From contig NC_092808.1 of NCBI RefSeq assembly GCF_040954645.1, positions 114,926,049 through 114,990,048 on the forward strand: DNA of 64,000 bases, given 5' to 3'. The DNA is from Diabrotica undecimpunctata. Lineage: Eukaryota; Arthropoda; Insecta; Coleoptera; Chrysomelidae. The position numbers and the translations under genes were made by a program. The notes beneath the pieces were generated by a model that saw only the letters and a program-made list of their open reading frames with translations, was not told the origin of the DNA and ran no database searches. Position 1 is the first letter of the stretch. Each line of letters opens with the position of its first letter. Of this stretch, positions 45,506 through 63,133 are shown one piece after another.

Positions 45506-48225
45506 GAGAAATCACATAAGCATTAACCATAACTAAATTTGTACCTTCTAGGATGCATGTTCAATAGTTTAAAATAATTATTTTTTGTTCACATCAAAAA
45601 ATCATTTCCTATACAATAATTAATGGTACTTATTGGTTTTTTTAAGTACCATATAGTTTACAATATCTTTATGCTTCTTCAAAAATCAAAATTACCAACA
45701 TATACCTGCTGTGAATGAGAGGTAAAAGTTCAGTAGATTTTGTATAGATCTTTTAAGCTTCTTAAAATTAAATTTTGTGTTTTAATAAAGCAAATTGTTT
45801 TTTAGAGTAAACATCAGGAAACAGAGACAAATAAGCAGAAAGATTCCCCAGTACCACTTGATGTAGAAAAGCCAGGTTGCAGTCATCAAGTTGAAGGCTC
45901 CCCTATTTATCCTGCTCCCACACATTCTCATATTATGAGTGACAATGGCGATACTATGGTAATGTATTGAAGCAATTGATAATTTTATAAAAATTACATA
46001 AAAACACAGACTTCATATCGTATTTATTTATTAAAATTATATAGATAATATAATTAAATTAAACTATAAACTACAAATATCAGATATAATTACAGAAATT
46101 AGGTATAATATGAGAAAGATTTAAAACTACTACAGTAGTGAAATACATTTGTATTTGACTTTGACTAATATTTTATTGATTTACACCATCTAAATTATGA
46201 TTATATTTTTAGAATGATCCTAAACCAGCAAAAAAGAAAATAAAAATAGAGAAAGCATCAAAGAGTGAAAAAAAGAAGACTTTTAACAGCTCTTGGAAAA
46301 GTGTACCACAGTTTAAGAATTGGTTAGAAAAATCAATAAAACAACCATCATCTGAGGGTAATGAGTACGCCTATTGCAAGGTATGTGATTGTGATATTGT
46401 AGCTCATAAAAGTGTATTACTAAAACATTCAATAAGTGAAAGGCATAAATTAAATTGGACAAAAGTGGCGAGCAATACTAAACTCACTGAATTGTATAAA
46501 CCAAATGCTGATGATGTAGCTGTAAAAACGGCAGAGTTAAAGTTATGTGCCTTGTTGGCAAGCAATAACCTGCCATTTTTATTAGTAGACACCCTAACTC
46601 CTTTAATTCAAAATATATGTTATGACTCGAAAATTGCTAAACAATTACACTTAAAACGAACCAAAGCTAAGTCAATTATTTGCAATAACTTGGGGTATAA
46701 TTTTCTTGAAGAACTATATATTAAATTAAGGGAGCCAGGATGTTTTTTTTCTTTGGTTATGGATGAAACTACTGATATTTCAGTAAAAAAGCAATGTGCA
46801 TTCACTACTATAATTTATGAAAATAATTCAACCAAAACACAATTTTTTGATCTTGTCGAGGCTCATGGATCAACAGCTAGTGATTTATATGGTATTCTAA
46901 AGAACTGTTTAACTTCAAAGAATATTCCACTGACTAATTTTGTAGGGTTTTCATCAGATACCACCAATGTTATGGTTGGAGAGTTTAACTCTGTATTTTC
47001 CAAGTTAAAAGAAGAATTTCCACACATAGTATGCATTAGATGCTCATGTCATATGGCACATTTAGCTACATCAAAAGCCTGTTTAAAATTACCTAGGCAT
47101 GTGGAAGATCTGCTACGGAACATAGGCAGTCATTTTAATAGGAGTGCTTTGAGGAGACACAAATTTATAGAGTTCCAAAATTTTTTTCAAGTGAAAATTC
47201 ACAAGATACTCTCTCCAGCCATAACAAGATGGTTATCTATTAAAGAATGTGTCGATAGAGTACTTGAGCAATATGAGCCACTTAGAGCATATTTGACAGA
47301 GTATGTATTTGAAGACCCGTCAATTACAACAGAAACAATGTTGGAAACCATGTCAAATTTGTTCACACCGGTGTATCTAGAGTTTATGTCATATTCTTTA
47401 GGACTAATGACAGATTTCAATTTACTCTTTCAGTCAGAAAAACCACTTCTTTGTAAGGTTCAGCCACAAACTGAAACTCTGTTGAGAACGCTGTGTTCTA
47501 ATTTTATAAAGATGTCTGTAATAAAAAGAACCAACGACATATTTAGACTTAACCATGAAAACCCTACAAATTTTGTTAGTTTACATGATATTTATATAGG
47601 AGTTGCTGCAACAGAAAGCTTGAAAGAATTAAAAAAAAAGCCAAATTTGAACCAAAAAGAATTTGATAGTTTTTTTAAATGTATTTTAGAATTCTATATA
47701 GAGTTAGTTAGTAATATTAAAAATCGATTCACCTTTAACGACCCTATCTATAAAATAATTTCAATATTGGATCCCAAAATTGCACAAAGCTTTGAAATAA
47801 AATCATTACAATGTGTAACTAATCAATTCCCTATTTTAAAAGAATATGTTAATATTCAGGAGTTAGATAATGAATGGAGAAGACACGCTTTATTAGACTT
47901 TGAAAAATTAAATTTAAATTCAGATGACTGTGAGCAATATTGGTCTCAAATATTTAATTTAAAAAATGATGCTAATGCTTTTTTATTTCCGAATTTAAAA
48001 AAAACGCTACAGCTACTTTTTGTTTTGCCATTCTCTAATGCTAGTGTAGAACGTATATTTAGTGATTTGTTTAACATAAAAAGTGACAAACGGAATTTAT
48101 TAAACTCTTCAACAGCAAAGGCTATTTTGGCAACCAAAGCAGGAGTTGAAAAGAATGGCGGTTGCTTAAAATTCATACCATCCAAAAAAATGCTAGGCCA
48201 TAATACATGGAAAGACAATCAGTAG
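45383..48225 (+). CDS. hAT transposase, three exons (45383-45409, 45806-45958, 46213-48225), 730 residues
   Basis: All introns are phase 0 with GT..AG ends: MDKWLFSFK | SKHQETETNKQ...GDTM | NDPKPAKKKIK.... The joined frame is open to 48225. A BED-type zinc finger (YCKVC...LLKHSISERH, residues about 114-135) would bind the element ends. The RNase-H-like core shows MDETTDIS (first Asp, about 243), SSDTTN (second Asp, about 307) and the hAT CSCHMAH motif (about 337). The C-terminal dimerisation domain reads LFVLPFSNASVERIFSD. It acts in the nucleus as a cut-and-paste transposase. Lack of lesions and the perfect target duplication suggest a young, possibly active copy. The exon structure is inferred from phase and splice sites. 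Confidence 0.88.
45445..45502. repeat. (TA)n microsatellite in hAT intron 1
   Basis: About 29 uninterrupted TA units. Confidence 0.95.
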
Positions 48226-49430: not shown

Positions 49431-49509
49431 ATTTTGGACAAAATCGCATAATTTTTGACAGGGAGGTGCATCTTTCCATGCCCAGCCATTGGTAACACTG
49501 AGCTGTAGC

Positions 49510-49548
49510 CACAGTATATTGCTTATAAAGAATCAGTAAGTTCACTCT
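49510..49548 (+). repeat. Left terminal inverted repeat of the P-type element
   Basis: 39 bp, pairing with 61396-61434 at 38 of 39 positions. Confidence 0.9.
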
Positions 49549-50053
49549 CGCATTTTCACGGTTCCAATTTCGAATCCACTCCTGGAAGATATGCGCAATA
49601 GATTTGGCGAAAAATGCCGCTGTTGCAAGATTTAAAATATTCCATCAGTTTCAAAGAATATTTCAAATTTATAATAAAATAATTATTATAGAAGTTCTTC
49701 AAAAAGAGGAAAATTAATTTCATAAATGGTAAAATTCTTTACATAGCCACTATACACACTTCTAAAGTTTGAAAAATCATATTGCCTAATTGACTTAATA
49801 TATTCTCAAATAATTAATCATAAGTATCTATCCATTGATTGATTACATTTGGCAACATTGATTTTACCCAAACACGTGTTTGTGTTTATGCTGTGAAACT
49901 AGAAATTACAGTTATTTCAGTAATTTATATAATATAAATTTCATTTATTTGTTGTTATTTAGTTGGTTTTATAAGTTTATTTCGTTTTTAATACATATTA
50001 CTGTGATATTTCTCCAGTTTTCTAAGTGGTTTTATTATTTTAAACGACGGATT
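49549..50053. promoter_or_regulatory. Probable promoter and 5' UTR of the P transposase gene
   Basis: The palindrome AAACACGTGTTT at 49870-49881 contains an E-box (CACGTG). The sequence around 49930 is TA-rich. Upstream in-frame codons without a stop continue to 49880 but look like T-rich UTR. No start site can be fixed. Confidence 0.35.
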
Positions 50054-53000
50054 ATGATGAATTCAGCTAAAACAAGTGTTTATTATTGCTGTGTATGTAG
50101 AAAAAATTCCAGGGACCATAACAACTTGAACTTGAGTTTCTTCAGGTTTCCCAAGGATGAAAATCGGTAAGAACTAAATTCTCTATTTAATATAATTGAC
50201 CTCATCGGTGTTGTATTTTTAGGTTTGCAGAATGGAAGAAAATTGTTCAATGTGAAAAACTTGCCATGTACAGTGCTCAATATTGTTATGATCACTTTAG
50301 AATATGCAGTTTACATTTTGAGGAACCTGCCTTTGCAGGAATGCTTAAAAGCAGGTTGAAAAAAAACGCAAAACCATCTATTCATCTTGTGAGATTAAAC
50401 ATTCCAGTTCAAGGTATGTTCTTTCTTTCAGGTGAATAATGAGAGAACTCATTTTTGTAATTTTGTAGGCACACCTGTGGAGAAGTTACAATCATTTGCG
50501 AGTACTCCGGAATCATTGGCATATAGAATTGAAGGTATGCATATATTTTTAAAACTAATTGTTGGATATTTGTGGGAAATTGTAAGTTTTGGCCATGAAT
50601 TTGGTAGATAACTGTCTAAATCTAAACTCTAGAAATAATTCATCTATTTTGGCTAATAGAGCATTTGTCTGGGTAGATTTCATACAGCCTCTTTCTAAGC
50701 TTAATGCTTGAAATTGGAGTCTAACGTTTTAATTGTGTATGTGCTGGTTTTATGAAGTTACTTCAAAAATCTAGATGGGTCTTACTAAGCTGTAATGGCT
50801 TAAAAAAGAGTAGATGGGTCAGCTCTACAAGTTCTGCTAAAGGATCCCATGATATTTATACCTTTAATAGATTTTCCAGTTATATTTTCAATACGCTTAT
50901 CTGATAGGTTGTTAAATTGTTTTTTTTTTTAACTAAATAATCTTACTTTTATTAACCGAAATTTGAAGATTGTGGAGGTTACACCCTTCATGAATATCTG
51001 ACAAAAAATAAGGGTTAATTGGAGTGGAGTTCAAAATGAGGTTTAGGCTTTATATAGTTGAACTAGGCACTAGCATAAGAGAGTAGGGTCACATTATCTG
51101 GTATCAAATTATGTGAATGAGAAGAATTCAACTGAAAAAATCATTTATGATAAATTCAATGCTACTGATCAATATAATTTCAATATGATTTTAATATATT
51201 TTACTTAATATGATACATACGTTATTCTTTCTAGGGACATCAGCTGTAGAGGAATTGCAGGCAGTAGCAAGTACCTCTGCGGAATCTATGATGTATAGTA
51301 TTGAAGGTATGCATATATTTTTAAGATTAATTGTTGGATATTTATGTTAAATTATAAATTTTGGTCATGCATTTGGTAGATACCTAACTGTCTGTATCTA
51401 AACTCTAGAAATCATTCATCTGTTTTGACTTCTATAGCATTTGTCTACATAGATTTCATACAGCCTCTTCTTACGCTTGAAATTGGACTGGGTCTAACTT
51501 TTTAATAATTTATATGCCGTTTTTTTGAAGCTACTTCAAAAATCTAGATGAGTTTTACTAGGCTGTAATGTGCTTGAAGAAGAGTAGATGGGGCTGCTCT
51601 ACACCAAGTTCTGCAAAAGGATCCCATGATATTTAGACCTTTAATAGATTTTCCAGTTATATTTTCAATACGCTTATCTGATAGGTTGTTAAATTGTTTT
51701 TTTTTTAACTAAATAATCTTACTTTTATTAACCGAAATTTGAAGATTGTGGAGGTTACACCCTTCATGAATATCTGACAAAAAATATGGGTTAATTGGAG
51801 TGGAGTTCAAAATGAGGTTTAGGCTTTATATAGTTGAACTAAGCACTAGCATAAGAGAGTAGGGTCACATTATCTGGTATCAAATTATGTGAATGAGAAG
51901 AATTCAACTGAAAAAATCATTTATGATAAATTCAATGCTACTGATCAATATAATTTCAATATGATTTTAATATATTTTACTTAATATGATACATATGTTA
52001 TTCTTTCTAGGGACATCAGCTGTAGAGGAATTGCAGGCAGTAGCAAGTACCTCTGCGGAATCTATGATGTATAGTATTGAAGGTATGCATATATTTTTAA
52101 GATTAATTGTTGGATATTTATGTTAAATTATAAATTTTGGTCATGCATTTGGTAGATACCTAACTGTCTGTATCTAAACTCTAGAAATCATTCATCTGTT
52201 TTGACTTCTATAGCATTTGTCTACATAGATTTCATACAGCCTCTTCTTACGCTTGAAATTGGACTGGGTCTAACTTTTTAATAATTTATATGCCGTTTTT
52301 TTGAAGCTACTTCAAAAATCTAGATGAGTTTTACTAGGCTGTAATGTGCTTGAAGAAGAGTAGATGGGGCTGCTCTACACCAAGTTCTGCAAAAGGATCC
52401 CATGATATTTAGACCTTTAATAGATTTTCCAGTTATATTTTCAATACGCTTATCTGATAGGTTGTTAAATTGTTTTTTTTTTAACTAAATAATCTTACTT
52501 TTATTAACCGAAATTTGAAGATTGTGGAGGTTACACCCTTCATGAATATCTGACAAAAAATATGGGTTAATTGGAGTGGAGTTCAAAATGAGGTTTAGGC
52601 TTTATATAGTTGAACTAAGCACTAGCATAAGAGAGTAGGGTCACATTATCTGGTATCAAATTATGTGAATGAGAAGAATTCAACTGAAAAAATCATTTAT
52701 GATAAATTCAATGCTACTGATCAATATAATTTCAATATGATTTTAATATATTTTACTTAATATGATACATATGTTATTCTTTCTAGGGACATCAGCTGTA
52801 GAGGAATTGCAGGCAGTAGCAAGTACCTCTGCGGAATCTATGATGTATAGTATTGAAGGTATGCATATATTTTTAAGATTAATTGTTGGATATTTATGTT
52901 AAATTATAAATTTTGGTCATGCATTTGGTAGATACCTAACTGTCTGTATCTAAACTCTAGAAATCATTCATCTGTTTTGACTTCTATAGCATTTGTCTAC

Positions 53001-54047
53001 ATAGATTTCATACAGCCTCTTCTTACGCTTGAAATTGGACTGGGTCTAACTTTTTAATAATTTATATGCCGTTTTTTTGAAGCTACTTCAAAAATCTAGA
53101 TGAGTTTTACTAGGCTGTAATGTGCTTGAAGAAGAGTAGATGGGGCTGCTCTACACCAAGTTCTGCAAAAGGATCCCATGATATTTAGACCTTTAATAGA
53201 TTTTCCAGTTATATTTTCAATACGCTTATCTGATAGGTTGTTAAATTGTTTTTTTTTTAACTAAATAATCTTACTTTTATTAACCGAAATTTGAAGATTG
53301 TGGAGGTTACACCCTTCATGAATATCTGACAAAAAATATGGGTTAATTGGAGTGGAGTTCAAAATGAGGTTTAGGCTTTATATAGTTGAACTAAGCACTA
53401 GCATAAGAGAGTAGGGTCACATTATCTGGTATCAAATTATGTGAATGAGAAGAATTCAACTGAAAAAATCATTTATGATAAATTCAATGCTACTGATCAA
53501 TATAATTTCAATATGATTTTAATATATTTTACTTAATATGATACATATGTTATTCTTTCTAGGGACATCAGCTGTAGAGGAATTGCAGGCAGTAGCAAGT
53601 ACCTCTGCGGAATCTATGATGTATAGTATTGAAGGTATGCATATATTTTTAAGATTAATTGTTGGATATTTATGTTAAATTATAAATTTTGGTCATGCAT
53701 TTGGTAGATACCTAACTGTCTGTATCTAAACTCTAGAAATCATTCACCTGTTTTGACTTCTATAGCATTTGTCTACATAGATTTCATACAGCCTCTTCCT
53801 ACGCTTGAAATTTGACTGGGTCTAACTTTTTAATAATTTATATGCTGATTTTTTGAAGCTATTTCAAAAATCTAGATGAGTTTTACTAGGCTGTAATGTG
53901 CTTGAAGAAGAGTAGATGGGTCTGCTCTACACCAAGTTCTGCAAAAGGATCCCATGATATTTATATCTTTAATAGTTTAATAGAAAAAAAAAATATTTTT
54001 ATGATCAATTCAATGCTGCTGACCAATAATATACTTTGAATATGCTT

Positions 54048-54126
<79 letters not shown>

Positions 54127-57090
54127 ATTCTTTCTAGGGACATCAGCTGAGGAATTACAGGCAATAGCAAGTACCTCTGGGGAATCTATGCCATATAGTA
54201 TTGAAGGTATGCATATATTATCAAAATTAATTGTGACTCTGACAACAATTTTTATATGAAAGATGTATCTCATTTATTGAAGTGAACATGAAATACTTTT
54301 TTCAAATAATATTTTGAAATTTGACAATGGTCTTACTGAGAAAAACATTTGGAGGCATTTTATATCTAGTATAAACAACAAAAACTCGTTTGTCCCAGAA
54401 GCTTATAGATGCATAAATTTTTTCATTTTTAAAAACTTACAATAACAATGTTAAAACTGTTAAGTTTATAGAAAAAAAACAAGCCAAATTTTCAATTAAT
54501 GAATTCAAAATTCAATAAAACCAAATCTTTCAAGGCCAACCAAAATAGGCCTTTTATGGGGATATCCAAAATTAGTTTTTACATACATTAAGAAGAGAAA
54601 GATAAGTCAATGGATTCCCTAAAACATTCGTTTCTTGATGTTGAATTATTTATTTATAATTTTCAGATGCCGAAAATGTTGGAGAGTGTGTTTTCTCCCC
54701 AACGACAGCAAATATATCTTCAGATATATATCAAGAGAAAGGTCACAAATCAAAGGGTAAGGCAAATATATAATGACATTCAATTTCTTCATATTTGTGA
54801 TGAATCTAATAATCAATTAGTGCCTCCAACTTCTTATTAGAGTATTTGATAGTAGAAACCCTGGTAAATCACTTGTTACCTCGTTTTAATGAAAATTTAC
54901 TTATTTCTTAACTACTTACTTACTTATTAACAGCATTCAAATCAAGACTATTTTTTAGGCATCCAAACACCAACAAAATTATCATTTGGAACTCCCAGGA
55001 AAGCCCGTTTGAGAAAAACAATTAAAAACCTTCGAAGGAAATTAATTAGCCCTCAAGCTCAAAACACAACACAAAATCATAATCTAACAATGGAGAGTGT
55101 TTCTCGATTTCTCCAAGAACATGTTACACCAAACTTAGCTAAGTTCTTAAAGGTGCAGTTATCATTGTCAAAGAAATCGCCAAAAGGATCAAGGTATTCC
55201 AATGATTTCAAGCAGTTTGCCTTAACAGTACACTTCTTGGGGCCTAAAGTCTACAAGTTTCTCTCGAAAATATTTCGATTGCCTTCAAAAAGTACATTAC
55301 AAAGGATTACTGCCAAATGGAATATAAGGTCTGGGTTCAACCAATTTTTATTTGACGCTCTTAAAATAAAAGCTGAAATGCTACCCAACACTTTCAGAGA
55401 TTGCATTTTATGCCTGGATGAAATGTCTCTAAAATCTCAATTATTTTATAATATAGCTCAGGATGAGATTGTTGGATTTCATGAAACGCCGTTGAAAAAG
55501 TCATTTAAACCTGCTCAAAATGTTTTGGTGTTGATGGCTAGAGGCATTAATCAAAACTGGAAACAGCCAATTGCTTATTTTTTTGTTAATTCAAGTTGTC
55601 CAGTTTATGACTTAAAAACCATTCTTTTTGCAACTATTAGAAAATTGAAAGATGTTGGGATGAATGTTCTCTCGGTTGTATCAGACCATGGCAGTAATTT
55701 TTCCAGCTTAATTAAAGAGCTTAATATATTAGTGGATAAACCCTATTTTATTTGTGACTCTGCCAAAATTTTTTATATAATAGATGTACCTCATTTATTG
55801 AAATCAACTAGAAATAACTTTTTCAAGTATAACTTTAAATTTGACAGTGGTCTTACTGATAAAAAATATTTGGAGACATTTTATGTCCAAGACAAACAAC
55901 AAAAATTTCGTTTGGCCCCAAGGATTACAGATTGTCACATTTTTCCATCGAATTTTCAAAAAATGAAAGTAAAATATGCAGCCCAAGTTTTTAGTGCAAC
56001 ATTGGCAGCAGCAATCAATGCCTACATTTCTTTCCAAAAACTGCCAGCAGCAGCCATAACAACTGCAGAATTTATAGAAAAAATGGACAAACTTTTTGAC
56101 TTAATGAACTCTTTTAAATTCAGTAAAGCCAAATGTTTTAATAGGCCTTTTATGGGGACCTCTATACAAATAAAATTTCTGAAGGAAATGTCAGAATTTT
56201 TCAATACTTTGACAGTTCTTCAAGGCAACAGAGATGTAACAAAAAGAATAAAATTTACATTTGGCTGGAGGTTAACCATATCATCTTTGCTAGGGTTATG
56301 GGATGTATTGAAGGCCAGGCAAATTAACCAAATTTTTACAAGGCGATTGAACCAGGATTGTCTTGAGAATTTATTTGGTAAAATCAGACAGCAAAGTGGA
56401 AATTGCCGGAATCCAATACCAATTCAATTTCAAAGAGCGTTCAAAAAAATGTTTGCGGTTAGTTATTTTAATAATTCTGAAGGTACAAATTGTCTTGATG
56501 AATTTGATAAAATTTTGGCCAATATAACACCAGAAGTAATTGAAAGATGTCAAATACTCATACCTGAGCCAAATATTTTCAAATCTTTGAAAATAGAATC
56601 TAGAGACTACACCAATTTAAACATAAGCGAAAAGAATGGTTTTGTATATGTAGGAGGCTATTTCATGAAAAAAATTTTAGAGAAACACAAATGTCCTTCA
56701 TGTTTACAATATGGTAAAGAACAAACTGATTTGAGTGAATCAACAATATATAGTTTTTTTAAGGCATACCCAAATGCAGAAAATGATACATTTGGTAATT
56801 TACAAATGCCCAATATGAATTTTATAACATACATCCATGCCCTAGAGAATGTGTTTTGTGAATATTTTCCAGAAATGGCTACAAGTCAAGACATTGGAAA
56901 AAATTTAAAAAATATGCTTTCCAATATAGAACCTCCAAAACCTTGTCAGGAATTTCCGGTAGATTATCTAATAGCACTGTTTGTGAGAGTAAGAATTTAT
57001 TATACTATTAAATTTTTAAACCAAGACATCAGATCTTCAACTAAGACCAATAAAAGTAATTTAAAACTGAAAATTTTAACTCATTCTTGA
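50054..57090 (+). CDS. THAP-domain P-element transposase gene, ten exons, predicted 982 residues
   Basis: Exons: 50054-50166, 50223-50413, 50469-50534, 51235-51306, 52011-52082, 52787-52858, 53563-53634, 54138-54206, 54667-54756, 54959-57090. They sum to 2949 nt, an exact multiple of three, with no stop. Exons 1-2 encode the THAP zinc finger (YYCCVCRKNSRD, FFRFP, EWKKI, CSLHF). Six homologous small phase-1 exons (22-24 residues, GTSAVEELQAVASTSAES type) form a linker. The last exon holds the RNase-H-like core: CILCLDEMSLKS (Asp about 423), VVSDHGSNF (Asp about 514), the insertion-domain PHLLKSTRNNFFKYNF, and QDCLENLFGKIRQQSG (Glu about 738). It would move P-type elements in the nucleus. The start could be 50054 or 50057. 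The exon chain is inferred but strongly supported by phase. Confidence 0.87.
50469..54206 (+). repeat. Tandemly amplified exon-intron unit (776-bp period) in the P transposase gene
   Basis: A 72-bp exon followed by a 704-bp intron recurs at 51235, 52011, 52787 and 53563, exactly 776 bp apart and nearly identical. A diverged founder-like unit precedes (50469, 66-bp exon, 766 bp to the next). A shortened unit follows (54138, 69-bp exon), where most of the intron is replaced by a (TA)n tract. Every exon is phase 1 to phase 1, so any copy number keeps the frame. Confidence 0.95.
54054..54123. repeat. (TA)n microsatellite
   Basis: About 35 TA units in the last amplified intron of the P transposase gene. 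Confidence 0.95.
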
Positions 57091-57338
57091 ACACCAAAAC
57101 ATTAAGCAGGTACAAGAGAACTGAAATTGAACATAAAAATGAACGCTGAAGAAATGAATCTAATCAAAGAAAAAATGAAATTATTTCAGAATGAGTGGAC
57201 AATAGAAAAGGAAGAAATATTCAACCATAAGAAAGAGAGGAGAGAGACAAAAAGTGCGCAACAGTGCTAGTTAGAAAAAAGAAAGAACAAACACATTCTG
57301 AAATGAACCTCCAAATTAAAACGAGTCACAAAACACAA
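57091..57338. other. 3' flank of the P transposase gene
   Basis: A-rich and non-coding. A polyadenylation signal was not located with certainty. Confidence 0.35.
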
Positions 57339-58480
57339 AGTTGGGGCAATGATTAGTTTAGGGCACCCATCATAACCAAACTTGTATTTGGCATTTAATG
57401 TAAGCTTAAATGGTGTCACAGTTTTCATATCTTCATTTTTTTTAATACTCTCACATAAAATTATAGAAATGCATTGAAATTATATAAAAATTCATAGATT
57501 TTAATTAAATTAAAGATAATAATTAAAAGCATATACAATAAAAACTTCTTCGGAAATTTACAATTTATGATTCACAAGTTCACATTTTACTTACTATGGC
57601 AAGTTTATACTTTTATTCAAAATTTGTAGCTTCTCATAAAACAAATTATTATTTCGTAAAAGTAACTTTAAACATTCATATACATATTTTACAAAAAAAA
57701 ATTGTAACACCGTGCGCGATGCCTTGAGGAAAATATACAGTAGACTCCCTCTATAACGAGAACTGAAATGACAGACTAATTACCTCGTTATCAGCCGATC
57801 TCGTTATATCAGACAACAATAATACTGCGCATACATATGAATATGTAATTTTCTAAACCATTAACTTCCTACAGTGAAGCCATTCGGAGCAATATAAGAT
57901 GCTAATAAATATTGTTTGAATGGCGTTTTTGAAAAAAAGTTATTTAGTTTTATTGTCAATGAAATATATTAAAACATAAAAGAGTTGTTTACTTTTATTA
58001 TCAATGATATACGTTAAAACAAAAAATATGTACTTATATTTTTTCCAACTACATAATGTATTTTCAAGGATAACATAAACTATTGCTTCTGCAATTTTAA
58101 GAACTCTGTCATTTTTAACTGCTTTAAATGGTCCAGTATCATTCTATCATATTTTTTAAAGATGTGAAACAGTTGTATTTATTCATTGTAAAGAAGTTTA
58201 TTTCGGGCTGGAGTTAAGTTTATTGAGGGGCTGTTTGAAAAGGTATTTATTTATAGCCACGACCCGACCAAAAACGTAAAAAACACGTTTTTGGATCTTA
58301 TTTTCTGTCGTTATAACCAAATTTGCCTCGCTATAGACGGTTATAGTTCAATAGAATGTCACGGGACATCTAATGTATCACGTTATAAGCGAAACTTCGT
58401 AATAACCGTGTTCGTTATAGAGGGAGTATACCGTATTTGGTTATGCTGAGTGCTCTAAACTAATCATTCCCCCAAAGTTC
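57339..58480. mobile_element. Inverted-repeat element (TTGGGGCAATGATTAG family), non-coding
   Basis: The left end (AAGTTGGGGCAATGATTAGT..., 57339) and the mirrored right end (to 58480) match over about 40 bases with several differences. It contains a pogo-like MITE. A single end of the same family is at 31165. Confidence 0.6.
57738..58433. mobile_element. pogo/Tigger-like MITE
   Basis: The termini CAGTAGACTCCCTCTATAAC and the mirrored counterpart (CGGTATACTCCCTCTATAAC) are flanked by TA on both sides (57736-57737 and 58434-58435). 'CTCTATAACG' ends are typical of pogo-related elements. There is no transposase. Confidence 0.7.
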
Positions 58481-58581
58481 ATTAAGTCAAAGTGAAATAG
58501 ATTTGTACTAAGTAGTACTTGTAGAACTGCAGTACTGATAAGCTTGAAATCATAAAGAATTTCTACATCCTTTGGAAATCA

Positions 58582-58850
58582 ATATATCGTTGTTCCAGAA
58601 GTATAAACACATAATTGTAAAATTTTGAAAAATGACTTTATTGTGTTGGAGGTCAAAACTGCATTTTCTATATATCTTTAAATCATCATAACTGTACTTT
58701 CGGAATCACCGGTCATGGCGAAATTCGTAAGTACAATTACGACGATTTACAAATATGTTAAAAATTAAGTTATGATTCCTCCAACACAATAAAGTAATTT
58801 TTCAAAATTTTACAGTTATGTCATTATACTTCCGGAACAGCGATATATAT
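58582..58850. repeat. Palindromic MITE-like unit
   Basis: ATATATCGTTGTTCCAGAAG at 58582 and its mirror ending at 58850 extend for about 70 bp of imperfect inverted repeat. It has no coding potential. Confidence 0.7.
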
Positions 58851-59167
58851 GCTATCACTTTGCCATCGTTGTCTGAAAGTGGAATCTGATTTTGTCTTTC
58901 AAAATTAAGATTCGACTGTTACTGTTCCTGTCTGTGAGTAAGTATCTTAGCTAGGTGTAACATATGTTCTACTATTTTATATTCTGCAAGAATTTGAGTA
59001 TTACCTTATTTGCAGAAACTATAAAACAGGCCTCCTAAAATCCAGCTTTGGTTTGATTCTTCATGCTTTAGTCTTAAAAACAAAAATTAAATTTTAAACT
59101 TAAAAAACTTAAGCTATGTAAAAAACATAATTTTCTTGAACCTTTTTAAACAGAATATTAAATAGCT

Positions 59168-60545
59168 GAGAAGATTTATATCGCATGTTAGGATTCGATC
59201 AATTAACTTTGTACTCAGCCTTTTAAGTAAAAAAATCAAAATTTGTCTTATGGTAAATCTATTTTTATTCATAGTACCCTATCATATCTCGTATGTCGTT
59301 ATACGTTCATTAATATTGAATTTACTGTGTAGTGCCCTTTTAATAGTCGCCTTGTTTATTTTTTCTATCTGAATATATTCGTTATATCCTCCCCTTTCAT
59401 TTGCCATGTCGCATGTTAGGATTCAATCAGTTGTTTATTTTGTACCTAACCTGAGGCCTTCTTTAAGTCAAAAAATCAAAATTTGTCATATGGTAAATCT
59501 ATTTTTATTCATAGTACCCTATCATATCTCGTATGTCGTTATACGTTCATTAATATTGAAGATACTGCGTAGTGCCCTTTTAATAGTCGCCTTGTTTATT
59601 TTTTCTATCTGAATATATTCGTTATATCCTCCCCTTTCATTTGCCATGTCGCATGTTAGGATTCAATCAGTTGTTTATTTTGTACTGAAAATAAGGCCTT
59701 CTTTAAGTCAAAAAATCAAAATTTGTCTTATGGTAAATCTATTTTTATTCATAGTACCCTATCATATCTCGTATGTCGCTATACGTTCATTAATATTGAA
59801 GATACTGCGTAGTGCCCTTTTAATAGTCGCCTTGTTTATTTTTTCTATATGAATATATTCGTTATATCCTCCCCTTTCATTTGCCATGTCGCATGTTAGG
59901 ATTCAATCAGTTGTTTATTTTGTACTGAACCTGAGGCCTTCTTTAAGTCAAAAAATCAAAATTTGTCATATGGTAAATCTATTTTTATTCATAGTACCCT
60001 ATCATATCTCGTATGTCGTTATACGTTCATTAATATTGAAGATACTGCGTAGTGCCCTTTTAATAGTCGCCTTGTTTATTTTTTCTATCTGAATATATTC
60101 GTTATATCCTCCCCTTTCATTTGCCATGTCGCATGTTAGGATTCAATCAGTTGTTTATTTTGTACTGAAAATAAGGCCTTCTTTAAGTCAAAAAATCAAA
60201 ATTTGTCTTATGGTAAATCTATTTTTATTCATAGTACCCTATCATATCTCGTATGTCGCTATACGTTCATTAATATTGAAGATACTGCGTAGTGCCCTTT
60301 TAATAGTCGCCTTGTTTATTTTTTCTATATGAATATATTCGTTATATCCTCCCCTTTCATTTGCCATGTCGCATGTTAGGATTCAATCAGTTGTTTATTT
60401 TGTACTGAACCTGAGGCCTTCTTTAAGTCAAAAAATCAAAATTTGTCTTATGGTAAATCTATTTTTATTCATAGTACCCTATCATATCTCGTATGTCGCT
60501 ATACGTTCATTAATATTGAAGATACTGTGTAGTGCCCTTTCATTT
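59168..60545 (+). repeat. 240-bp satellite-like tandem repeat organised as 480-bp dimers
   Basis: Nearly six units start at about 59168, 59408, 59648, 59888, 60128 and 60368. The last four full units alternate between two variants ('gtactgaaaataaggcc' and 'gtactgaacctgaggcc'; 'gtcgct' and 'gtcgtt'), so 480-bp dimers have been copied. The 68-residue open frame in each unit is a by-product of the repeat and has no known motif. Confidence 0.93.
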
Positions 60546-61395
60546 AACGTATCACACGCTCCAATGTCGAAAGTGTATTTTTTCTGCCTCAACAACGTTT
60601 TTACAGCTTTTAATTAATTACATTTAATTTTGGTAGATGTTGGTAGTTCAGATTTCTTTTCTAGGTGGCGTAGTTACCTTACTGAATAAACAGTGTGACT
60701 TTTCATCCTAGCCTTTTATATAGATAGATTCTTCCAATTTTAAATGTACGTAAAAATATGAGTTTGACTAACTACGTTATGAACGTAGTGATCCTACAGT
60801 GGGATCTTTAGGCTATATGACTTTTTTCATTTCATTATTTTGTTATTAATAAGTTGTGATTGTGAAAATATATATATTCTATTCTAACTTGTATTCATAG
60901 TTCGCTACTTGTGTTTTTATAATCCTATTTTTATTATAACTGGTATTGTAAAATTCAAATTTTCAAAATATAATTTATAATTCGAATGTATTATTATTTT
61001 TTCATCTATAGAAATTAGTTTCCTCATTAGCTCTTCGTTTTATGAGATTTCTCACCAGTAACAGTGAATACAGTGTGATTTTCTAATGAATACAAAAAAT
61101 TAATATTCGATTAATCAAAACTGATGGATTCAACATAATACATTTTGAAGGGCAAACAGTAATAATTATTTTGGGAAACTATTGATAATTGTCGAAAACG
61201 CTAAATTTAGGAAAGTATTCATTATTCCGAAAATCTAATTAAATTTTATTTCGCCACAAGTCACTTTTTTCCTATTTATTTTCGAGCAGTGTATTAAAAA
61301 TTATATTGAGCAGTGTATCAAAAACTGGAATTTATCTGCGCGTGGAAGTAATGCGCGTGAAAAAAATGGAACATGAAGAACAAAGGACTGGCGGC
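60546..61395. other. Right subterminal region of the P-type element, non-coding
   Basis: AT-rich, with no gene seen. Confidence 0.4.
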
Positions 61396-61434
61396 AGAGT
61401 GAACCTACTGATTCTTTATAAGCAATATACTGTG
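61396..61434 (-). repeat. Right terminal inverted repeat of the P-type element
   Basis: Mirror of 49510-49548 with one mismatch, followed directly by the CTGTAGC target copy. Confidence 0.9.
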
Positions 61435-61441
61435 CTGTAGC

Positions 61442-62296: not shown

Positions 62297-63133
62297 CAGG
62301 GGTTCTAAAACATTTTTTTTTTTCGAAAAATACTTTTATGTGAATAAAATAAAATAATTTTGTATAAAACATTTGTAAATGTATTTAAGCACATACATAT
62401 GTCAAACCTTAATAAATATGCAGGTACCTACATAAATAATTAAAATGTATTTAAACTGTGTATTTTACATTTCTTCTGTACTCCCGCCTTCCTCACTTTC
62501 ACTGCCACTGTTGCCATTAAGGTTCATTATAACTGGGTCGATATTGTCAAGTAAATTATCCATATACCACATCTATTCTGTTTTTCTATACTAATTATGT
62601 GTCACATGTAATTATTCCATTTTTGTGGAATAACTTGAGAGTATGCTTCATGTATTAGATTTTCTACTTCCTTCTTAAAGTTTGTGTTATGTCTTGCCAC
62701 AAATCTTTTTATTTCACTCCATACCAGCTTTATCGGATTTAGTTTACAGTGATATGCAGGTAATTTTAGCAACTTAACATTTTTACTTTTTGCAATTTCA
62801 TCTACAATATTCTCATCATACTGCGATTTTAAATGAGCTACAACATCCCACAGTTCAGATTTTAGGTAATCTTCTTCAAAATAAATATCCTTTGAACGCA
62901 ACCACTCCTTTATTTCTTCATTATTTTCAGAATTGTTCGGAATTCTTTCCAACTTTCTGGAGTGATACGACACATTGTCCATTACTATTACAGTTGTATC
63001 AGGAATATTTGGAAGAATATTTAGTTAGAAGAATATATAGTTTTAAACCAATTTTCAAAAAGAGGTCCATCCATTTCGTCATGATAGTCTGCTGTATTTT
63101 TCTTTGCTAAAAAAATTATTTCTGCTCCAATAA
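62297..63133 (-). mobile_element. DD82E-like Tc1/mariner relative, right copy, cut by a piggyBac element
   Basis: The left terminus CAGGGGTTCTAAAACA is at 62297. Homology to 2631-3320 continues to 'gctcca' at about 63129, where piggyBac-like terminal sequence starts. The far end is not in the window. Confidence 0.65.
62602..63129 (-). pseudogene. DD82E-like transposase, right copy
   Basis: It contains MDNVSYHSRKLERIP (second catalytic Asp) and YHCKLNPIKLVWSEIK, where the third catalytic Glu is Lys; 82 residues separate the two positions. Upstream, YHDEMDGPLFENWFK is in another frame, so there is a frameshift near 63020. It keeps the segment deleted from the left copy, but both share the Lys. 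Inactive. Confidence 0.7.

Follow-up and report, generated by a model that had tools for sequence, protein, structure and literature searches.

The P transposase serves as a model enzyme of DNA transposition. The P element of Drosophila is 2.9 kb long, contains four open frames, and is bordered by terminal inverted repeats (TIRs) of 31 bp and target-site duplications (TSDs) of 8 bp, while the zebrafish THAP9 transposon has TIRs of 13 bp and TSDs of 8 bp (PMC7776569). The P elements of Anopheles gambiae were described with three putative exons (and an extra intron in one family), TIRs of 27–31 bp, and TSDs of 8 bp (PMC1562414). Here we describe a P-superfamily transposon of the beetle Diabrotica undecimpunctata, which lies on contig C6 of the 1.74-Gb genome, within a stretch of 64,000 nucleotides (assembly GCF_040954645.1, contig NC_092808.1, positions 114,926,049 to 114,990,048 of the forward strand), called the window in the following. 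In its transposase gene, a tandem array of small exons lies downstream of those for the THAP domain and upstream of the catalytic exon. As judged from the genomic sequences, this array is real, preserves the reading frame, and is variable in length.

The six module exons (E1–E6; Table 1) are homologous and have lengths of 66, 72, 72, 72, 72, and 69 nt, which encode 22, 24, 24, 24, 24, and 23 residues. All of them begin and end in phase 1, and each is preceded by AG and followed by GT. Adjacent exons are homologous and compatible in phase, which is the pattern of tandem exon duplication. Exons 2–5 of the array are identical in sequence and are spaced by 776 bp. The three units of exon plus downstream intron (51235–52010, 52011–52786, and 52787–53562) show 0 differences over 776 bp in all three pairwise comparisons, and the mismatch-free 776-bp self-repeat extends over 1,750 bp. 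The spliced coding sequence of 10 exons with GT/AG borders is uninterrupted and comprises 2,949 nt or 982 residues. The sequence-only reading of this locus had proposed a P transposase gene with six homologous exons at 50469–54206, four of them identical with the period of 776 bp, all phase 1 to phase 1 and encoding a module of 22–24 residues between the THAP domain and the catalytic core; the exon map and the Pfam matches confirmed these proposals.

The 90-nt exon that follows the array has no likeness to the module when judged by eye. Several candidate donors and acceptors exist near exons 9 and 10; for the chosen GT/AG pair (54756/54959), the frame was computed, and the choice agrees with the public gene model P0123. 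This model belongs to a copy of the element with three modules (copy C, see below) and contains the three modules and the exons downstream of them, and its junctions from E1 to the catalytic exon are as predicted here. It supports the splice map, though it is possibly purely computed. A second public model, P0126 (copy A, see below), includes three modules and then reads into the intron, the donor of which is GG in that copy.

Table 1. Features of the P-superfamily transposon and its transposase gene (positions refer to the window)
Feature	Positions	Strand	Basis
Complete P-superfamily transposon, 11,925 bp	49510..61434	+	Ends from other copies; inverted repeats and duplication read directly
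Left TSD, CTGTAGC, 7 bp (right copy 61435–61441)	49503..49509	.	Read directly
Exon 1 with the start codon and the beginning of THAP	50054..50166	+	PF05485 match on exons 1 and 2
Exon 2, remaining THAP; ends in phase 1	50223..50413	+	PF05485 match on exons 1 and 2
Module exon E1, 22 residues, phase 1-1	50469..50534	+	Exon borders and phase
Module exon E2 (24 residues), the initial one of four 72-nt exons with identical sequence	51235..51306	+	776-bp repeat
Module exon, identical copy two	52011..52082	+	776-bp repeat
Module exon, identical copy three	52787..52858	+	776-bp repeat
Module exon, identical copy four; parental intron-5 type downstream	53563..53634	+	776-bp repeat, diagnostic sites
Module exon E6, 23 residues, phase 1-1	54138..54206	+	Exon borders and phase
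Three identical 776-bp units of an exon and a chimeric intron (intron-5 type in the 5′ part, intron-1 type in the 3′ part)	51235..53562	+	0 differences; 65 diagnostic sites
Further exon, 90 nt, 30 residues, phase 1-1	54667..54756	+	AG/GT borders, open frame; junctions match gene model P0123 (three-module copy C)
Catalytic exon up to the stop, with HTH, RNase H plus GTP-binding insertion, and C-terminal part	54959..57090	+	Pfam; 6p5a alignment
Second tandem array, 240-bp units, six here versus four in copy X	59222..60540	+	70-bp core count

The predicted product is a P-type (THAP9/P) transposase, as the THAP domain, the domain order, and the positions of the acidic blocks all agree with this assignment. 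The THAP domain (PF05485) was matched with 3.1e-14. In the catalytic exon, the Pfam matches PF12017 (frame positions 60–125), PF21787 (134–264), PF21788 (288–401), and PF21789 (473–505) follow each other and represent the P-element helix-turn-helix (HTH), the split RNase H domain, and the GTP-binding insertion. The solved structure of the Drosophila P transposase (6p5a) was matched with 6.4e-44 over residues 67–507 of the translated frame, and the DEM, SDxG, and NQDxxE blocks, the acidic residues of which we take to be catalytic, are in register with it. The N-terminal part of the transposase also matches two proteins with THAP and zf-AD domains, P0121 of D. undecimpunctata (84% identity) and P0122 of D. 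virgifera (67%). They perhaps represent a host gene that was a donor or a recipient of the THAP domain.

The array was read in six copies of the element, with module counts of 6 (window), 5 (X), 3 (A), 3 (C), 2 (B), and 2 (D). Copy X (C10:9936584-9947248, 10,665 bp) is intact and has five modules, i.e., E1, three identical 72-nt exons, and E6. Its protein of 958 residues equals the protein of the window element minus one 24-residue module, plus two substitutions, and the module part comprises 117 residues compared with 141 in the window. In both intact copies, all modules are in frame and have intact splice sites. The remaining copies are decayed. Copies A (C4, 92.9 Mb) and C (C4, 109.45 Mb) contain three modules in the order E1-i1-E2-i5-E6, with introns 1 and 5 (i1, i5) between them. 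Copies B (C7, 108.1 Mb) and D (C10, 4.29 Mb) contain two modules, the first of which has lost its acceptor AG in copy D. At three loci on C9 (L049–L051), a deletion from near the 5′ end into the intron before the last module has left one module. The length of the linker thus differs between copies of the element, and the comparison with other copies, as suggested in the sequence-only reading, supports the expectation of that reading that the linker can change in length without a break of the frame. At least two copies in the genome are intact, and their number may exceed two because the best 62 of 2,190 candidates were scored; the genome search with the unit scored 38 of 38 matches.

An unrooted tree of five copies grouped A with C and X with the window element and placed B apart, and both inner branches were recovered in 100 of 100 bootstraps. 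The distances to the window element are 0.2% for X, 3.0% for A, 4.0% for C, and 8.6% for B, the last of which has probably been raised by an insertion in that copy. Within the catalytic exon, the window element is separated from B by 90 differences in 2,135 sites, from A by 43 in 1,685, and from C by 36 in 1,251.

Additional loci carry internally deleted derivatives. At eight of them (L023–L030), the sequence from about 50040 was joined to 56484 (six loci) or from 49988 to 56503 (two loci), with further losses in some of them. The long pieces that were kept are 98–99.8% identical to the window element. The six derivatives that were measured have sizes of 4,053–4,059 bp (four loci), 3,737 bp (one), and 2,707 bp (one, with further loss). 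The 240-bp array, which lies in the non-coding 3′ part, is present with one to two units in seven of the eight and is lacking in the eighth, as counted by its 70-bp core. From these near-identical derivatives at eight further loci, it is inferred that the element was recently mobile. At 15 loci, only bases 7–336 of the unit were matched, and two of these (L052 and L053) were read. In both, position 50799 was joined into the 240-bp array, so that the THAP part, module 1, and the 3′ end were kept, and a THAP-only frame of 148 residues is open. Internally deleted derivatives of the P element also exist in Drosophila, where the KP repressor elements resemble this THAP-only family. The copies described here are a selection from the matches; beyond them lie 13 of the 15 loci with bases 7–336 and the smaller unit matches, which include C5 67.50 Mb, C7 22.81 Mb, C9 59.95 and 57.61 Mb, C3, and C6 101.25 Mb.

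The introns of the array are a mosaic. In the window, introns 1 and 2 differ at 39 of 327 sites in the 5′ half and at 3 of 360 sites in the 3′ half, and intron 5 differs from introns 2–4 in the 3′ half. The divergence is uneven because introns 2–4 are chimeric. In the copies A, C, window, and X, 65 diagnostic sites discriminate between introns 1 and 5, although 29 (window) or 33 (X) of these sites are absent from the element's own intron 5, so that the type-5 state is defined there by A and C alone. In the chimeric introns, the first 24 of the 65 sites are of the intron-5 type (one of neither type), and the remaining 41 are of the intron-1 type. Three chimeric introns of distinct sequence were compared, one in the window (intron 2, to which introns 3 and 4 are identical) and two in X (introns 2 and 3), and each of them switches a single time from type 5 to type 1, between alignment columns 280 and 342. 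The longest tract over which introns 1 and 5 are identical lies inside this switch interval in copy A (47 bp), copy C (27 bp), and the window (22 bp). The chimeric unit is present three times in the window and twice in X, and copies A and C are without it. An (AT)37 run at 54051–54123 lies in intron 5, just upstream of the acceptor of module 6. AT runs are also found in copies X, A, and C, but not in the two-module copies B and D or in the three copies on C9.

The single switch in the chimeric unit indicates that unequal recombination between paralogous introns gave rise to the array, an origin that is well supported by the pattern of diagnostic sites. One unequal crossover between an intron of type 5 and an intron of type 1, at the place where they are most alike, would have produced the unit of E2 and the chimeric intron. 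This crossover would have occurred on the branch leading to the two intact copies because A and C lack the chimeric unit. The founding exchange was not the last event: 9 of 339 sites separate the 5′ part of the unit from intron 5, and 3 of 360 sites separate its 3′ part from intron 1. The number of units would then have changed by in-register gains and losses. In view of work on P elements, the repair of gaps left by excision would readily account for such changes, here as in the 240-bp array, and exchange between sister chromatids would be another possible setting. One substitution and one indel distinguish the two units of X, and 3–4 substitutions lie between them and the window units. As units are more alike within than between elements, copying or homogenisation appears to have occurred after the window element and X separated. 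The rough chance to find no difference among the window units would be about 0.035 if all three predated that split. The sequence-only reading had taken near-identical introns as a sign of recent expansion. This applies to units 2–4, which are identical, and the last step in array length indeed looks recent, but the near-identity does not extend to all introns of the array: introns 1 and 5 each diverge from the chimeric introns 2–4 in one half. The difference between six and four units in the second, 240-bp array shows that tandem repeats of this element change in number in general.

Taken together, we consider it probable that the locus is a recently mobile P-superfamily transposon with an array of symmetric linker exons that varies in length by unequal recombination, and that the linker is weakly constrained and drifting. 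Each gain or loss of a module would alter the linker by one block of 24 residues and keep the frame, because every module exon is phase 1-1. Neutral drift of the array, at a weakly constrained linker length, appears to be the most likely functional view. On the branch to the intact copies, 11 nonsynonymous and 10 synonymous changes were counted. At the tips A and C, the respective counts were 24 and 6 (p 0.06), and at tip B, they were 31 and 15. The modules themselves have too few sites for an estimate of selection.

Several observations weigh against this reading. The two-module copies B and D may be ancestral, or they may be the shortened reciprocal products of exchanges, so that more than one order of the older steps would fit. 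A simple gain from two to three modules after the split from B is disfavoured, as introns 1 and 5 diverge more within the window (41 of 327 sites) than the 5′ part of intron 1 does between the window and B (12 of 258 sites). In B and D, the 5′ part of the introns is mostly of type 1, and the 3′ part contains mixed states. For a simple series of gains from 2 to 3, 5, and 6 modules, the first step is thus not claimed, because the introns of B and D mix both types. Gap repair and sister exchange both fit the data. The gene models P0123 and P0126 may be purely computed, and the THAP part is altered in both; the inclusion of every module exon in the mRNA is inferred. The linker between the THAP domain and the dimerization, HTH, and catalytic parts is probably disordered, as indicated by a structure model of low confidence (mean predicted local distance difference test score of 38, 6 sequences, P0123 being without part of THAP). 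In addition, the window element and X differ at 2 of 2,661 coding sites and at 11 of 3,819 non-coding sites (p 0.09), and both coding differences change a residue. Selection on the two intact copies is at most suggested by these counts.

Two functional alternatives were considered, both of which we regard as unlikely. According to the first, the array controls splicing. Every module adds an intron, retention of which would yield a THAP-only repressor at the element ends, and a longer array would mean less transposase. Retention of intron 1 of the window is predicted to give a THAP protein of 148 residues, public models of this 148-residue frame exist (P0124, 6 members), and upon retention after E2 or E6 the frame would end within about 16 residues past the module. 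A 66-kDa P protein acts as a repressor in Drosophila. Control of splicing at the third intron of the Drosophila element determines whether the full transposase or the truncated 66-kDa protein is made (PMC7776569). The deletion copies with bases 7–336 of the unit, two of which retain THAP, E1, and the open frame, would fit as well; however, these 15 loci have lost DNA and are hence uninformative on splicing. Moreover, most introns would yield stops when retained.

The second alternative holds that selection maintains the module as a functional motif, further copies of which would raise activity by adding binding sites or by extending the reach from THAP to the core. The in-frame modules and intact splice sites of both intact copies are in line with this, and so is the finding that exons E1 and E2 differ at 17 of 66 sites, more than the intron next to them (39 of 327 sites; p 0.006). 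This contrast could, however, be accounted for by conversion of the introns, and identical exons give no signal of selection. In addition, E1 and E6 were the only modules covered by the alignment, and a single site in them changed on the branch to the intact copies; this change alters a residue.

It seems rather improbable that the array is a self-adjusting rheostat, in which recombination during the life cycle of the element would set the number of modules, and thereby the ratio of transposase to THAP-only repressor or the reach of the THAP domain. If true, activity would be tuned up or down in whole, reversible, frame-preserving steps. Least of all do we believe in the multiplication of a single real unit by the assembly, a worry raised in the sequence-only reading that is now largely answered: the three window units are base-identical, but the X units differ from each other and from those of the window, chimeric and parental introns lie side by side in both intact copies, and both parental introns also occur in the copies with three modules, so that an assembly error alone is no explanation and, at most, the count of three identical window units could be wrong.

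The ends of the element were approximated by comparison of genomic copies, and the repeats and the duplication were then read directly. The TIRs comprise 39 bp with one mismatch (49510–49548 and 61396–61434) and have the form CACAG...CTGTG. The TSD has 7 bp in all eight copies with both ends recognised (10 loci were inspected, two of which have one end only). TIRs are thus present as in canonical P elements, whereas the canonical 8-bp TSD was not found. A blind scan for terminal repeats in the region 47.5–60 kb that assumed an 8-bp duplication yielded 0 candidates. The right end lies beyond the scanned range, and it was the comparison with other copies that made the ends clear, with a duplication of 7 bp. 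The 3′ part of the element contains two pairs of inverted repeats, at 57341–58475 and 58582–58848 (40-nt arms with 90% and 71-nt arms with 92% complementarity), which may be nested small elements. Upstream of the element, at 46213–48225, lies a stop-to-stop frame of 670 residues that resembles hAT transposases, and at 62602–63024, a fragment of a DDE_3 (mariner-like) transposase is found on the minus strand.

The THAP domain and most of the dimerization domain are unresolved in the P transposase structure (PMC7776569), which therefore does not show how these parts are tied to the catalytic core. The two intact copies are a natural pair of proteins that are one linker block and two substitutions apart, and they are complemented by decayed copies with shorter arrays. 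As the proteins with five and six modules are nearly identical, the effect of linker length is accessible to measurement, and the alternatives discussed above are directly testable. The case also illustrates how a single crossover between introns would found an array of exons that then grows within a mobile gene.

The family of this transposase includes P0123 and P0126 of D. undecimpunctata and P0125 of D. balteata, with three, three, and two modules, respectively; these are models of partial or decayed copies that are named "uncharacterized" or "unnamed". The Gonioctena models P0128 and P0054 each contain one module-like stretch, as judged by eye. For the question of which module number is older, these proteins of other leaf beetles provide no more than hints. 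The protein of Cylas formicarius LOC132706519 (P0082) combines a THAP domain and a P-type core with imperfect linker repeats (score 75, compared with a maximum of 43 in 20 shuffles). Its repeat is different and diverged, with an offset of 62 residues, and it would be a possible independent case of linker repeats. The other five of the six listed THAP-bearing full-length proteins and Gonioctena P0128 were within the shuffle range. Among the papers listed in literature searches with thin coverage of subscription journals, none is on such an exon array in a P transposase, as judged by title and abstract opening. The available part of the Anopheles account likewise mentions no exon array (PMC1562414); shared with the A. 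gambiae elements are THAP P transposases of similar size (876–895 residues in three reference elements) and non-autonomous relatives. The zebrafish THAP9 transposon is also of the THAP9/P type and has TIRs, but differs in the lengths of TIRs and TSDs. With the P element of D. melanogaster (6p5a), the Diabrotica element shares the THAP domain, the HTH, the split RNase H domain with its GTP-binding insertion, and the TIRs. In contrast to the P element, it has 10 coding exons, six of which are repeated modules, TIRs of 39 bp, TSDs of 7 bp, and a length of 11.9 kb.

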